A DNA stretch of 64,000 bases from Mycobacteriales bacterium (GTDB lineage Bacteria > Actinomycetota > Actinomycetes > Mycobacteriales > SCTD01): NCBI GenBank assembly GCA_030697205.1, contig JAUYQP010000042.1, positions 1 through 64,000 on the forward strand, given 5' to 3'. Shown here piece by piece: positions 41,755-49,213 of this stretch; position 1 is the first letter of the stretch, and every line of letters begins with the position of its first letter. The position numbers and the translations under genes are program-made. A model generated the notes under the pieces. That model saw only the letters and a list, made by a program, of their open reading frames with translations, did not search any database and had not been told where the DNA came from.

Positions 41755-42902
41755 CTAGCGGGCGCGGCCCTTGGTCGTGAAGGCCGGCGCCACCATGACC
41801 TCGACCTTCTGGAACTCCTTGAGCGAGGAGTAGCCGGTCATGGCCATCGCCTTGCGCAGCGCGCCGAAGAGGTTGGTCGTGCCGTCGTCGGTGCGGGCCG
41901 GCCCGAGCAGGATCTCCTCCAGCGTGCCGACTTGGCCGACCTCCACGCGGGTACCGCGCGGCAGCTGCGGGTGAGTCGAGGCGTGGCCCCAGTGGAAGCC
42001 GCGGCCCGGCGCCTCGGTGGCCTTGGCGAGCGGCGCGGCCATCATCACCGCGTCGGCGCCGCACGCGACGGCCTTCGCGACGTCGCCACCGGTGGACATG
42101 CCGCCGGCTGCGATGACGTGGACGTAGCGGCCACCGGACTCGTCGAGGTAGTCGCGCCGCGCACCGGCCGCGTCGGCGATCGCCGTCGCCATGGGTACGC
42201 CGAGGCCGAGCACGCCGCGCGTCGTGTTGGCCTGGCCCGGGCCGACCCCGACGATGACGCCGGCCGCGCCAGTGCGCATGAGGTGCAGCGCGGACTGGTA
42301 GGTCGCGCAGCCGCCGACGATGACCGGCACGTCGAGCTCGGCGATGAAGCGCTTGAGGTTGAGCGGCTCCGAGCGGCTGCTGACGTGCTCGGCCGAGACC
42401 ACGGTGCCCTGGATGACGAAGATGTCCACGCCGCTGTCGAGCACGGTCTGCGCGTGCTGGACGGTGCGCTGCGGGGTCAGGCTGCCCGCGACCACGACGC
42501 CGGAGTCACGGATCTCCTTGACGCGCGCGGTGATGAGGTCGGGCTCGATGGGCTTGCTGTAGAGCTCGCGCATCCGGTCGGCGACCGCGACGCCCTCCGG
42601 CAGCTCGGCCAGCTCGGCCAGCAACGGCTCCGGGTCGTCGTACCTGGTCCAGAGGCCCTCGAGGTCGAGCACCGCGAGCCCGCCGAGGCGGCCGATCGCC
42701 ACCGCCGTCGCGGGCGACACCACGCCGTCCATCGGCGCGGCGACGAGCGGCAGCTCGAAGCGGTAGGCGTCGATCTCCCAGGCCAGGCTGACGTCCTCGG
42801 GGTCGCGGGTGCGCCGCGAGGGGACGATGGCGATGTCGTCGAAGCCGTAGGCCCGACGGCCGGACTTGCCGATCCCGATCTCGACCGTGTCACTGGTGGC
42901 CA

Positions 42903-42903
<1 letters not shown>
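41755..42903 (-). CDS. guaB3: GuaB3-type IMP dehydrogenase-family protein
   Basis: A 382-residue TIM-barrel protein of the actinobacterial GuaB3 group, shorter than GuaB because it lacks CBS domains. PLVAAPMDGVVSP, VGVGPGQANTTRG and VIAAGGMSTGGDVAKA follow the IMPDH/GMP-reductase pattern. The catalytic Cys of IMPDH (SxCxTR loop) is replaced by GQANTT, so normal IMP oxidation is unlikely. Mycobacterial GuaB3 is likewise not an active IMPDH. The ATG overlaps the guaB stop by one base, so the two proteins are coupled. Confidence 0.85.
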
Positions 42904-44887
<1,984 letters not shown>

Positions 44888-44924: not shown

Positions 44925-45554
44925 CTAGCTGACGAGACCGCGGCGGAAGCCGAGCGCGACCGCCTGAGCCCGGTCGTTGACGCCGAGCTTGCGGAACAGC
45001 CGGCGGGCGTGGGTCTTGATGGTGTCCTCGGACAGGTAGAGCTCGCGGCCGATCTGGTTGTTGCTCTTGCCCTGGCTCATGCCGGTGAGGACCTGCAGCT
45101 CGCGCTCGGTGAGCTGCGCGCCGGGCGGGGCCTGGCGGGTCACCTCGCGGGAGGCCAGGGCGCGGCGCAGGGACGGCTCGACGAGGTCGATGCCGGCGAG
45201 GGCGTGCGCGACGGCCGCGCACAGCTCCTCGTGGCTGACGTCCTTGAGGAGGTAGCCCCGGGCGCCGTGGCTGACGGCGGCGGCGACCTGGTCGCGGTCG
45301 TCGGCGGCGGTCAGCATGATCACCTTGGCCTCCGGGTGCTGCTGCACGAGGCGGCGGGTGGCCTCGAGGCCGCCGAGGCCGGGCATCCGGACGTCCATGA
45401 GGACGAGGTCGGGGTGCTCGTGGGGGTAGCGCGCGAGGACCTCCTCGCCGCTCGCCGCGGTCTCGACCTTGTCGACGCCGGGGACGGCCGCGACGAACTG
45501 CCGCAGCCCCTCCCGCACGATGCGGTGGTCGTCGCAGATGAGAACGGTGGTCAC
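44925..45554 (-). CDS. bldM: BldM-type response regulator
   Basis: A 209-residue NarL/LuxR-family regulator. The receiver has Asp8-Asp9, Asp54 in LVLMDVRMPG and Lys in YLLKDV, so the phosphate pocket looks intact. The C-terminal helix-turn-helix is ELQVLTGMSQGKSNNQIG then LYLSEDTIKTHARRLFRKLG. Length, sequence and position (guaB, DUF5319, then this gene, with whiD nearby) match Streptomyces BldM, which controls aerial-hypha and sporulation genes. Unlike the orphan BldM of Streptomyces, its ATG overlaps the end of a kinase-like gene (ATGA). I infer orthology from synteny and motifs. Confidence 0.8.
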   Translation of the reverse strand: MTTVLICDDHRIVREGLRQFVAAVPGVDKVETAASGEEVLARYPHEHPDLVLMDVRMPGLGGLEATRRLVQQHPEAKVIMLTAADDRDQVAAAVSHGARGYLLKDVSHEELCAAVAHALAGIDLVEPSLRRALASREVTRQAPPGAQLTERELQVLTGMSQGKSNNQIGRELYLSEDTIKTHARRLFRKLGVNDRAQAVALGFRRGLVS

Positions 45555-46594
45555 GTGGTCGCCTTCGGTCGGGTGGTGCGTGAGGGGGTGTCGCCGGCGG
45601 GAACGGCGCTGCGGACGGGCAGGAGCCGGGGGGCTGGGGAGAGCAGCCGCATGTGGCCGCTGCCTGGCTGCAGGACGGCACCGACGGCCTCGGCCCGGCG
45701 GCGCCAGCGAGAGGTGTCGAAGCTGCCGTCGGGGCTACCGTCGAGGTTTCCGTGGACCTCCACGGCGGGTCCGTCGGAGGTGACGACGCTGCGGACCCGC
45801 ACCGGGCCGGCGCCCGTGGCCGCCACGGCCTGGACGAGCCGGAAGGCCGTCGTTGAGACCGCGTGCGGGAGCGCGCTCAGGACCGCCTCGTCGAGGTCGA
45901 GCTCGAGGGCGGGCGCACCTGCGTCGACAAGGCGGGCCGACAGCTCGGTGAGGGCCCCGGCGAGGTCGTCGGCGGCGCGCGGGCGCAGCTGCCACAGGGT
46001 GCGGCGGATCTCGACGAGGGCGTCCTGGACGGAGTCGCGCACGAGCGCGACCGAGCCGTGGGGGTCACCGGCCCGGACGGCGGCGTCGGCGGCGTAGCGG
46101 GCGACCACGAGCGACTGGACCGCGCCGTCGTGCAGCGCGTCGGCGAGGGCGTCGCGGTCGGCCTCGGCGTCACAGACGAGCTGGAGGCCGAGGGGGTCCG
46201 CGGTGGGGCGACGGCCGACTGACAGGGCGAGCCCGAGGACGCCGGCCGCGGCGCGCAGCACGGCGAGGTGCGAGGGCCTGGCTCCGTGCAGGACGAGCAC
46301 CGCCTGCTCGCGTCCGCTGTGCACGACGGGGACCTCGTGCGGCGGGCCGGACGTCGTGAGCGGAGCGGCGGAGCGGCGGAGCGGGACGGCGTGGACGACC
46401 TCACCGGCGAGGGCGATCACCGCGCCGTCGGGGCCGGGGCCGCGCAGCACGGCGCTACGCAGCCCCAGCGCCTCGACGAGCAGCGCGAGGGCGTCCGGGA
46501 GCGCGGTCTGGCCGAGGTCGGCGAGCAGCCCGGCCACCTGGCCGAGGACCACGGCGCCGTCGTGGCCGGCTGTGCTCGCCGGTCGTCGCTCCAC
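45551..46594 (-). CDS. Degenerate histidine-kinase-like partner of BldM
   Basis: A 347-residue protein. Residues 20-125 look like a GAF-type sensor. Then LADALHDGAVQSLVVARY keeps the HisKA_3 phospho-accepting histidine (near 155) and DALVEIRRTLWQLRP the following helix. The ATPase part is reduced: the N-box Asn is lost in FRLVQAVAATGAG, and no DxGxG or GxG glycine box remains. It should not autophosphorylate by itself. There is no membrane segment. The GTG at 46594 has AGGAGG 5 nt upstream. It is translated just before bldM with a 4-nt overlap. Confidence 0.7.
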   Translation of the reverse strand: MERRPASTAGHDGAVVLGQVAGLLADLGQTALPDALALLVEALGLRSAVLRGPGPDGAVIALAGEVVHAVPLRRSAAPLTTSGPPHEVPVVHSGREQAVLVLHGARPSHLAVLRAAAGVLGLALSVGRRPTADPLGLQLVCDAEADRDALADALHDGAVQSLVVARYAADAAVRAGDPHGSVALVRDSVQDALVEIRRTLWQLRPRAADDLAGALTELSARLVDAGAPALELDLDEAVLSALPHAVSTTAFRLVQAVAATGAGPVRVRSVVTSDGPAVEVHGNLDGSPDGSFDTSRWRRRAEAVGAVLQPGSGHMRLLSPAPRLLPVRSAVPAGDTPSRTTRPKATT

Positions 46595-46740
46595 GCGCAC
46601 CTCCTGCCCTCGCTGTCACCACGTCACCACGTCGTCGGCACGGTGCCGTCGATGTGGTGAAGCATCGGCAGCATCGGCGCCCGACGTGAGCGTGACGCGT
46701 GCGCGTGATCAGCGCCTGACCCCTTAGGGCCACTCCTCCC

Positions 46741-46782
46741 TCACCCACCCGGGTGGGTGAGGGGGCTCACCCGGGTGGGTGA
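46741..46782. promoter_or_regulatory. Two TCACCC/GGGTGA palindromes, possible BldM site
   Basis: TCACCCACCCGGGTGGGTGA (46741-46760) is a perfect palindrome. TCACCCGGGTGGGTGA (46767-46782) has the same half-sites 4 nt apart. They share a 14-nt direct repeat at a 22-bp period. They lie 150-190 bp upstream of the kinase-bldM operon. From memory, the Streptomyces BldM homodimer site is a 16-bp palindrome with TCAC...GTGA halves, which the second copy fits. A terminator for the TPR gene is the alternative. Confidence 0.55.
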
Positions 46783-46801: not shown

Positions 46802-47725
46802 TCAGCCCCCGAGAAGGGCGTCGACGTCCGGGCGGGCGAGCCACTCGGCGCGCACCCCGGGCGGCAGCTCACCGGCGATGGTGAGCACCGCGGAGCGGGC
46901 CGCGGCGAGGCTCTTGTCGCTCTCCAGCGGGTCGTCCTCGGCGACGAGGGCGCCCAGCAGCGCGCGCGAGCGCCAGACCAGCGGCAGGCAGCCGAGCGAC
47001 TCCGCCAGCGTCGCGGCGCGGCGCAGCGTCGTCACGCACTCCTCGTCACCGACGCTGACCTGCGCCAGACCGAGCAGCAGCAGGCCCTTGGCCACGTGGC
47101 GCGGCGCGCGGGCGCCCTCCGCGCGGTCGACGGCGGCCTGCGCCTCCGGGACGGCGTCCTCGACCCGGCCCTCGAGCAGCGCGAGCTCGGCGGTGGCCCA
47201 GCCGAGGCGGACCCGCTGGCGCCACCACTCGTCGGAGCGGGGCGGGACGAGCAGGGCGGCCTGCGCGAGGCGGGCCGACGCCTCCTCGGGGTCCTCGAGG
47301 CCGATGGCGTCGGACGCGAGGCCGAGCAGCGCGTCGAAGGCCGCCTCCCCGGTGCCGTCGGAGAGCGCGAGCGCCTCGGTGTCGGCGTCGCGGGCGACCG
47401 CGTGGCGGCCGAGCTGGCGGTGGACGCTCGCGATCGTGGCGCCGGCCAGCGAGGAGAACAGGCGGTGCTCGGCGGGCGAGGACTCGTCGCGACCGGACTC
47501 CACGAGCGGTGACAGCACGGTGAGCGCGACGCCGTAGCGCCCCGCCGCACCCAGCGCGACCCCGAGCAGCCACGCGGCGGCGGCGACCTCCGCGCTGCGG
47601 CCCTGCGACTGCGCGAGCACGACGGCCTGCTCGAGGGTGCCGACGGCCGCAGCCGGCTTGCCGTGGAAGGCGGCGTGCTCGCCGGTCGCGAGCAGGCTCG
47701 CGAGGTCCGTGCCTGGTGCGGTCAC
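46802..47725 (-). CDS. TPR-like helical repeat protein
   Basis: A 307-residue protein made of paired helices with the TPR spacing (KPAAAVGTLEQAVVLAQSQG, then AAAAWLLGVALGAAGRYGVA and further repeats with alanine at the packing positions). No other domain, signal or membrane segment is seen. Such proteins are scaffolds or regulators. Its place beside the bldM/whiD block suggests, but does not show, a link to development. The GTG at 47725 has GAGGAG 8 nt upstream. Confidence 0.65.
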   Translation of the reverse strand: MTAPGTDLASLLATGEHAAFHGKPAAAVGTLEQAVVLAQSQGRSAEVAAAAWLLGVALGAAGRYGVALTVLSPLVESGRDESSPAEHRLFSSLAGATIASVHRQLGRHAVARDADTEALALSDGTGEAAFDALLGLASDAIGLEDPEEASARLAQAALLVPPRSDEWWRQRVRLGWATAELALLEGRVEDAVPEAQAAVDRAEGARAPRHVAKGLLLLGLAQVSVGDEECVTTLRRAATLAESLGCLPLVWRSRALLGALVAEDDPLESDKSLAAARSAVLTIAGELPPGVRAEWLARPDVDALLGG

Positions 47726-47783
47726 CGCGGTTGCTCCTCACGAGGGGTCTGGTCGCGGGGACGCTAGCGGTCGGTCCCGCGGC

Positions 47784-48758
47784 TCACGCCCCCAGGGCCT
47801 GCTCGACCAGCGCGACGGCGCTCTTGAGGTCGTCGGCCCGCGTCACCCGCGCCGGCAGCTCAGCACCGACCCAGCCGGGACCCCCGACGACCACAGCGGT
47901 CGCGGGCCGGGTCGTGGGGAGCCGCTCCAGCACGGCCGGGTCCGCGGTGCTCGCGAGCTGGCTCCACAGGAACAGCGCGGCGGGACCAGTACGTCGTACG
48001 GCGGCGGCGAGCGCGTCCGCAGGCATGGCGGCACCGAGGGTGCGCGAGACGTGCCCGCGCTCGGCGAGCGCGGCTCCGAGGACGTGCAGAGGCAGCGCGT
48101 GCTGGTCGTCGGGGGCGCAGGCGAGCAGCACCGGTCGGGCACCCTCCTGCCGGTCCGGCACGATCTCCCGCAGGGCGGTCGTCACGCAGTCCGACAGCAG
48201 GTGCTCGACCTCGACGCCCTGACCGGTCGCGGCCCAGCGGGCTCCAACCGCGGCGAGCACGGGACGCAGCACGTCGTCCCAGGTCGCAGTGACGCCCCGC
48301 CGGGCCAGCTCGGCGCGGACCGCCTCGGTGACGGCCGGGCCGTCGAGCGCCATCGCCGCCCGACCGAGCCCGCGCACTGCGGCCTCCGCGCCGGGCAGCG
48401 GGAGCACCCTGCCGCCGCCGGCGGGCGCCTGCAGCCGGCCGTCACGGGTCGGGAGCGGCGCGGTGTCGCGGCCGCTGACGAGCGGCTCGACCTCGAGGGC
48501 CGCCTGGGCCGCGGACGCGGGCGGGACCCCCTGCAAGGTCAGCCGCCGCATGGTCTGCAGCCGGGCGACGTCACGAGGGCTGTAGCGGCGGTGCGCACCG
48601 GCGGCGTGGCCGGTCGGGCCGAGGCCGTAGCGCCGGTCCCAGGTGCGCAGCGTCGCGGGAGCCACCCCCAGTCGGTGGGCGACCGCGGCGACGCTGAGGG
48701 GCGCCTCGGGGAGGTCGGGTGTCGGCACGTCGTCCGCACGCGCCCCGGTGGTCCCCAT
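47784..48758 (-). CDS. MerR-family regulator with cobalamin-type sensor domain
   Basis: A 324-residue protein. Residues 20-90 are a MerR helix-turn-helix (LSVAAVAHRLGVAPATLRTW then DRRYGLGPT). The C-terminal 200 residues fit the CarH/LitR layout: a four-helix part with RWAATGQGVEVEHLLSD (the Trp...Glu-His motif that covers the upper face of B12) and a Rossmann part with CAPDDQHALPLHVLGAAL, whose His is in the axial-ligand position although the following Gly of DxHxxG is absent. It may sense B12 and light or be a B12-free derivative. Start ATG 48758, or GTG 48764. It is divergent from whiD. Confidence 0.75.
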   Translation of the reverse strand: MGTTGARADDVPTPDLPEAPLSVAAVAHRLGVAPATLRTWDRRYGLGPTGHAAGAHRRYSPRDVARLQTMRRLTLQGVPPASAAQAALEVEPLVSGRDTAPLPTRDGRLQAPAGGGRVLPLPGAEAAVRGLGRAAMALDGPAVTEAVRAELARRGVTATWDDVLRPVLAAVGARWAATGQGVEVEHLLSDCVTTALREIVPDRQEGARPVLLACAPDDQHALPLHVLGAALAERGHVSRTLGAAMPADALAAAVRRTGPAALFLWSQLASTADPAVLERLPTTRPATAVVVGGPGWVGAELPARVTRADDLKSAVALVEQALGA

Positions 48759-48789
48759 GGGCACCAGGGTGGGCGATCCCGGCGCGCGT

Positions 48790-48864
48790 CACAACTCGGG
48801 GCTGTGACCACGCTCGCACAACTCGTGACCCGAAAGAGTTGAACAACTTACGACGCGGTACTAG
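48790..48864 (+). promoter_or_regulatory. Shared operator/promoter region of merR-like gene and whiD
   Basis: CACAACTCG occurs at 48790-48798 and 48817-48825 (27-bp period). Each is followed by GTGACC, after different gaps. GAGTTG at 48836-48841 makes an inverted repeat with the second copy. A TACTAG -10 box at 48859-48864 faces whiD. CarH-type regulators bind short direct repeats, so control by the divergent MerR protein is plausible. Confidence 0.5.
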
Positions 48865-48916
48865 GTTCGTGTCAGCACCTGGGCCTGACCCCCCAACTCT
48901 CCCCCGAGGACTCGCC

Positions 48917-49213
48917 ATGACCGATGTGAGCCGCCTGCCCGTCCCGATCACGGAGAACTGGGAGTGGCAGCTGCTCGGCTCCTGCCGCGGCGCCGACGGG
49001 GAGCTGTTCTTCCACCCCGAGGGCGAGCGCGGCCCGCGGCGCGCCAACCGCGAGGCCGCGGCCAAGGCCGTGTGCCGCACCTGCCCGGTCGTCCTGCAGT
49101 GCCGGGAGCACGCCCTGAGCGCGCGCGAGCCCTACGGCGTGTGGGGCGGGCTCTCCGAGCACGACCGTGAGGCGATCCTCTACGGCCCCGCGGCCCAGGC
49201 CGCGTCCGCCTGA
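48917..49213 (+). CDS. whiD: WhiB-family iron-sulfur regulator, WhiD/WhiB3 type
   Basis: A 98-residue WhiB-like protein. Cys23, Cys53, Cys56 and Cys62 (C-x29-C-x2-C-x5-C) bind the [4Fe-4S] cluster, and GVWGGLSE is the turn that contacts sigma factor region 4. The N-terminal NWEWQLLGSCRG and FFHPEGERGPRR parts match WhiB3 of mycobacteria and WhiD of Streptomyces, where it is needed for spore maturation and lies beside bldM. GAGGA precedes the ATG by 9 nt. A strong terminator follows. Confidence 0.87.
   Translation: MTDVSRLPVPITENWEWQLLGSCRGADGELFFHPEGERGPRRANREAAAKAVCRTCPVVLQCREHALSAREPYGVWGGLSEHDREAILYGPAAQAASA

Follow-up and report, generated by a model that had tools for sequence, protein, structure and literature searches.

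The window analysed here is a stretch of 64,000 nucleotides whose host lineage is an uncultured branch of soil actinobacteria, and it carries on its reverse strand a bldM gene and, directly upstream of it, a gene for a degenerate histidine kinase that we will call the partner. The features of this pair and of its upstream region are the following:

44925..45554, minus strand: bldM orthologue, a NarL/FixJ response regulator of 209 aa (Pfam Response_reg and GerE; pocket from alignment; model pLDDT 87; conserved locus)
45551..45554, minus strand: GTGA overlap of the partner stop TGA with the bldM start GTG (from the sequence; overlap kept in relatives)
45551..46600, minus strand: partner, a degenerate HisKA_3 histidine kinase of 349 aa (Pfam HisKA_3 only; model pLDDT 86; DHp and CA homology to canonical HisKA_3 kinases)
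45623..45964, minus strand: catalytic-domain remnant of the partner, residues 213-326, in which N box, G1, G2 and ATP lid are missing (fold match to the VraS CA domain; alignment and hhalign)
45986..46195, minus strand: DHp two-helix hairpin of the partner, residues 136-205 (HisKA_3 match 149-209; model helices 136-176 and 183-205; H157, D158 and Q162 invariant)
46205..46573, minus strand: N-terminal domain of the partner with a predicted GAF fold, residues 10-132 (structure match 4g3v, Z 12.2, rmsd 2.9 over 118 residues)
46741..46760, no strand assigned: a second palindrome, perfect over 20 bp, TCACCCACCCGGGTGGGTGA, adjoining the predicted operator (from the sequence)
46767..46782, minus strand: predicted BldM operator TCACCCACCCGGGTGA, with a match to the Group I consensus in each half-site, ~170 bp upstream of the partner

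The gene pair

The regulator is a BldM orthologue, as the first-pass annotation had recognised, and neighbourhood comparison links its locus to whiB and guaB in the order groEL-whiB-MerR/B12-TPR-[partner]-bldM-DUF5319-guaB. Streptomyces BldM is the textbook orphan developmental regulator, with an intact receiver pocket that is seemingly unused. It shares with the window BldM the regulator family, this whiB/guaB linkage and a recognition region, SEDT(I/V)KTHARRLF(R/K)K, that is nearly unchanged between the two, and its operator consensus has a match upstream of the window pair, but it is encoded without a partner gene and has Val at position T+1, whereas the window BldM has a partner gene, a permissive Ala at T+1 (A83) and, as read from the alignment, a complete pocket (D8, D9, D54, T82 and K104). 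A small residue at T+1 leaves the phosphorylation site accessible, whereas the Val of Streptomyces BldM may stand in the way of its phosphorylation (PMC12632262). Streptomyces BldM is not phosphorylated in vitro, and its D54A version complements (PMC4125116, PMC12632262).

The 4-nt overlap with a HisKA_3-type gene that had been noted earlier was confirmed as the GTGA at 45551..45554. The true start of the partner is likely GTG 46594, which fits better than 46600 because an AGGAGG ribosome-binding site sits five bases upstream of it. No paralogue of the partner was detectable in the host genome. Adjoining the pair, a conserved block at 46802-49213 encodes a TPR protein, a MerR/B12-binding regulator and a divergent whiB, and two guaB-type genes lie in tandem downstream (41755-44600), an arrangement kept in most relatives.

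In the Pfam search, HisKA_3 was the sole match of the partner (E 6e-7, residues 149-209), and HATPase did not match the window protein even at E<=1. Comparison of its profile with that of ten canonical HisKA_3 kinases aligned the whole DHp and CA region (residues 139-330, E 2e-17), and in the AlphaFold model residues 204-325 match the CA domain of VraS (Z 11.0). At the position of the N box, EALxNxxKHA, the window partner reads VQAVAATGAG in this comparison, DxGxG is replaced by HGNLDG and the lid is missing; intact boxes were also sought by Pfam and alignment and none was found in the window partner, which bears out the earlier proposal that the N and G boxes were lost. As the DHp and CA regions can be aligned throughout while these boxes are replaced or deleted, the partner is, judged from its sequence, a former GAF-HisKA_3 kinase that has lost its ATP site. 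The phospho-accepting His157 is kept, as had also been claimed, within an HDxxxQ motif (HDGAVQ, residues 157-162) of the DHp hairpin. No membrane segment was seen in the model, and a PDB search with the partner sequence gave no match; Foldseek with the model returned, with modest scores, CpxA, DesK-DesR complexes, ChpT (4fmt) and a phosphotransferase (4qpk).

Among the relatives of the partner the N box is absent from every His-bearing member, and G1, G2 and the lid are absent from nearly all, the window included. The least degenerate are those of family f97 (L203, L204, L205), which have no N box but keep a DDG resembling G1 and a C-terminal end rich in GT; the N-box Asn is retained in one His-less partner (L047). 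Pfam matched GAF in two relatives. This domain is absent in genus g6, where matches begin near residue 131, and in family f97 (L044, L204, L205), so that the DHp with the CA remnant is the common core. Ligand sensing, one of the roles suggested by the first-pass annotation, has the predicted GAF fold as its one basis, and a domain missing in one genus and one other family does not belong to the conserved core.

Predicted operator upstream of the pair

The published consensus for Streptomyces BldM Group I operators is TCACcCgnncGgGTGA (PMC4125116). Both half-sites of TCACCCACCCGGGTGA match it and its four middle bases fit less well; the last base of the match, position 46782, is where the interval singled out by the first-pass annotation ended. 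This match upstream of the partner suggests autoregulation, in which BldM would probably control its own two-gene operon through the predicted operator. Sites of this type, with 0-1 mismatch, were found upstream of the partner in six other loci (L027, L029, L030, L031, L034 and L039) and, at this stringency, not in the remaining partner-bearing ones. In most Geodermatophilaceae, whose bldM locus showed no MerR or TPR gene, a BldM-type site still lies ~160-300 bp upstream of bldM; it may serve more than bldM because the divergent whiB is close by. Apart from these positions, sites of this type are nearly absent from the loci of both groups.

In the whole 4.0-Mb genome we counted seven perfect BldM-type sites, while the reversed control pattern had none. 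The six others (G000 C17:25398, C57:2169, C11:94899, C10:113568, C13:73062 and C45:91052) are mostly intergenic and include one upstream of a NarL-type regulator gene beside an hpf-like gene, one upstream of csrA and one between leuA and a metalloprotease gene. They could mark a possible BldM regulon.

Distribution of the partner and state of the BldM receiver

In each of the 26 relatives L025-L050 the partner gene immediately precedes bldM, so the two genes are linked and not scattered, as the first-pass annotation had supposed, and this consistent position rules out a chance or random association. The partner occurs in six families of the class, that of the window and five more. In the family of the window 19 of the 24 genomes have it, and every genome with a recognisable bldM has a partner that overlaps it; the other five are all drafts and their lack of a partner is probably due to assembly gaps, because a recognisable bldM is missing from them as well. 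Outside the partner-bearing families, in Streptomyces among others, bldM has no partner gene next to it. The His-bearing group comprises 22 loci with that of the window, and in all of them the two genes overlap, 17 times by 4 nt, four times by 1 nt and once by 23 nt; in the His-less loci the arrangement varies between an overlap of 23 nt and a gap of 15 nt. The partner protein evolves several-fold faster than BldM, with dN/dS values (0.23-0.70) that indicate purifying selection, also in the His-less family (0.31-0.36).

The H, D and Q of HDxxxQ are invariant in the 22 readable His-bearing partners, which are ~30-50% identical to that of the window, while the five partners of family f100 (L046-L050) have all lost both the His and the Gln. 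The receiver of BldM follows the same division. All 22 BldM proteins of the His-bearing group, a count that includes two loci with the partner cut by a contig end, have D8, D9, D54, T/S82, K104, His10 and Ala at T+1, and two further BldM proteins beyond these present the same full pocket, His10 and Ala. Where the partner is His-less, all five BldM proteins have Gly at T+1, some have lost T82 or D54 and four of the five retain His10; BldM proteins with a full pocket and no partner have V, M, L or Q at T+1 (12 of 12), Val being the residue of Streptomyces. As these sequences are related and provide only 2-3 independent contrasts, all in the same direction, with so few pairs that 0.05 is unreachable, we regard the apparent joint change of the partner active site and the BldM receiver as a consistent pattern and not as a significant correlation. 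In Geodermatophilaceae (L067-L100, L102-L104) BldM is a pseudo-receiver (DER, Asp54 changed to Gly and Lys to Trp) which has Ala at T+1 and yet lacks the D, T and K of the pocket, so the T+1 residue alone is not diagnostic.

Possible activity and origin of the pair

In HisKA_3 proteins such as NarX, DxxxQ is required for phosphatase activity, with the Gln, whose counterpart in DesK is Gln193, positioning a water molecule, and the NarX His is itself dispensable for this activity (PMC3510030, PMC5231405). The HDxxxQ of the partner has the DxxxQ expected of a phosphatase of the NarX/DesK type, and its invariant His points equally to phosphotransfer, given that a phosphatase could dispense with it. 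Both the invariant motif and the condition of the receiver in BldM strengthen the earlier suggestion of either activity. Starting from what is read directly in the DNA (the gene pair, the loss of ATP motifs, the invariant HDxxxQ, the complete pocket and the operator motif), we give an even chance to the proposal that the partner is a kinase-derived phosphatase or histidine phosphotransferase acting on Asp54 of BldM, and not a kinase. Its DHp dimer, with H-D-xxx-Q as the active site, would dock on the BldM receiver and remove or exchange the phosphoryl group of Asp54, with the GAF domain, where present, serving as the input for a putative ligand, and BldM would in turn regulate the operon that encodes both. 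The phosphate would come from another kinase or from a small-molecule donor; for all other HisKA_3 kinases that the genome search revealed, a NarL-type regulator is encoded no more than ~5 kb away, which leaves no obvious donor for BldM. The fast evolution of the partner and the non-universal GAF domain count against this proposal.

Degenerate kinases with comparable arrangements are known. The alphaproteobacterial PhyT/PhyP are kinases with a degenerate ATPase and a functional His, encoded at the locus of their target regulator, and in Spo0B and ChpT a degenerate catalytic domain accompanies a DHp dimer (PMC5898713). The partner resembles PhyT/PhyP in its degenerate ATPase domain and in the place of its gene, but those are membrane-anchored HWE/HisKA_2 proteins that target PhyR, whereas the partner is of the HisKA_3 type and lies beside a NarL-type regulator. 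With Spo0B, ChpT and PhyT it has in common, by sequence and predicted fold alone, a DHp and a catalytic domain without ATP motifs; Spo0B and ChpT were not retrieved by a sequence search from the partner, and ChpT appears in the fold search. Neither Spo0B nor ChpT is known as the partner of a NarL-type regulator. DesK and NarX have the same HisKA_3 DHp with HDxxxQ, and structures of DesK and DesK-DesR match the partner model, but their ATP sites work and those motifs are lost in the partner. The partner would seem to join the degenerate kinases that act on a neighbouring regulator, which in this case is BldM. We found no description of a BldM partner in open-access papers.

It is rather unlikely, in our judgement, that the partner functions as a phosphorelay transmitter in the manner of Spo0B or ChpT, with His157 taking phosphate over from a kinase or receiver upstream and handing it on to BldM, which would thereby be activated. 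The His invariant in 22 of 22 readable partners, the DHp and remnant CA architecture, the model matches to 4fmt and 4qpk and the reduction of the protein to these two domains in one genus would all suit such a role, but no free receiver or donor kinase was identified and the Gln of DxxxQ, which is not known as a requirement for phosphotransfer, is equally invariant. We give a slightly lower probability to a non-catalytic binding partner that would bind BldM or let it go depending on a ligand of the GAF domain, and in which the active-site residues are leftovers. The purifying selection on the His-less family and the persistence of BldM His10 in four of its five members would agree with mere binding, which would not account for an HDxxxQ that stays invariant elsewhere despite the divergence of most of the partner, nor for the different T+1 residues of BldM in the His-bearing and His-less groups. 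That the partner is a dying kinase gene without a function of its own, retained through translational coupling to bldM, seems improbable: its fast evolution, the loss of GAF in several lineages and the probable loss of the whole gene in others could be taken in this sense, but the dN/dS values hold over long distances, the active site is invariant and the gene occurs in six families. Finally, a kinase with an unrecognised ATP site is hardly credible, as the DDG and GT-rich end of family f97 and the predicted CA-type fold are set against the missing N box of all His-bearing members and the missing G1, G2 and lid of nearly all, the window included.

In a tree built from genes of the neighbourhood, the His-less species (97) fall together with the partnerless L053, L054 and L056 (100), and this group joins Geodermatophilaceae/Nakamurella (100); the BldM tree again places the His-less species with L053, L054 and L056 (97/89). 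A single clade of partner-bearing species, with one gain and no loss, was rejected by the neighbour-gene tree (p-AU 6e-5). When other regulators served to root the BldM tree, the root fell among the partner-bearing species but on very long branches, and for this reason it was not used. The presence of a homologous gene in the same position on either side of the split fits one gain of the partner followed by at least three losses, with the His gone first in one branch; two separate gains, such as by transfer, or an older origin would also be possible.

The idea that the pair may show how the orphan form arose is supported in one lineage, that of the species with His-less partners that are sister to partnerless species, and orphan BldM probably arose by partner loss at least once among the sampled lineages; Streptomyces BldM may or may not have followed this route, as both a double gain and a single gain with several losses are possible. 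This one lineage suggests a stepwise course in which the kinase would first lose its ATP site and keep HDxxxQ, the His and Gln of the partner would then be lost while the BldM pocket decays, and finally the partner would disappear and T+1 become bulky. That BldM once belonged, or in this clade still belongs, as regulator to a true phospho-signalling pair, with the sampled species displaying the steps towards the orphan, is a tentative view to which we assign somewhat less than an even probability. The clade with BldM partners offers a direct way to test former phospho-control of BldM and, more generally, a route to testing how response regulators become independent of phosphorylation.

WhiI is the heterodimer partner of BldM in Streptomyces. 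The host genome (G000) encodes a second BldM-like regulator (C13:274448-275059; L132 1495-2187, minus strand), flanked by murB and a rarD-like gene and 53% identical to the window BldM, with a similar gene in G006 (L194). It is a candidate for a heterodimer partner like WhiI, but with its Asp intact.
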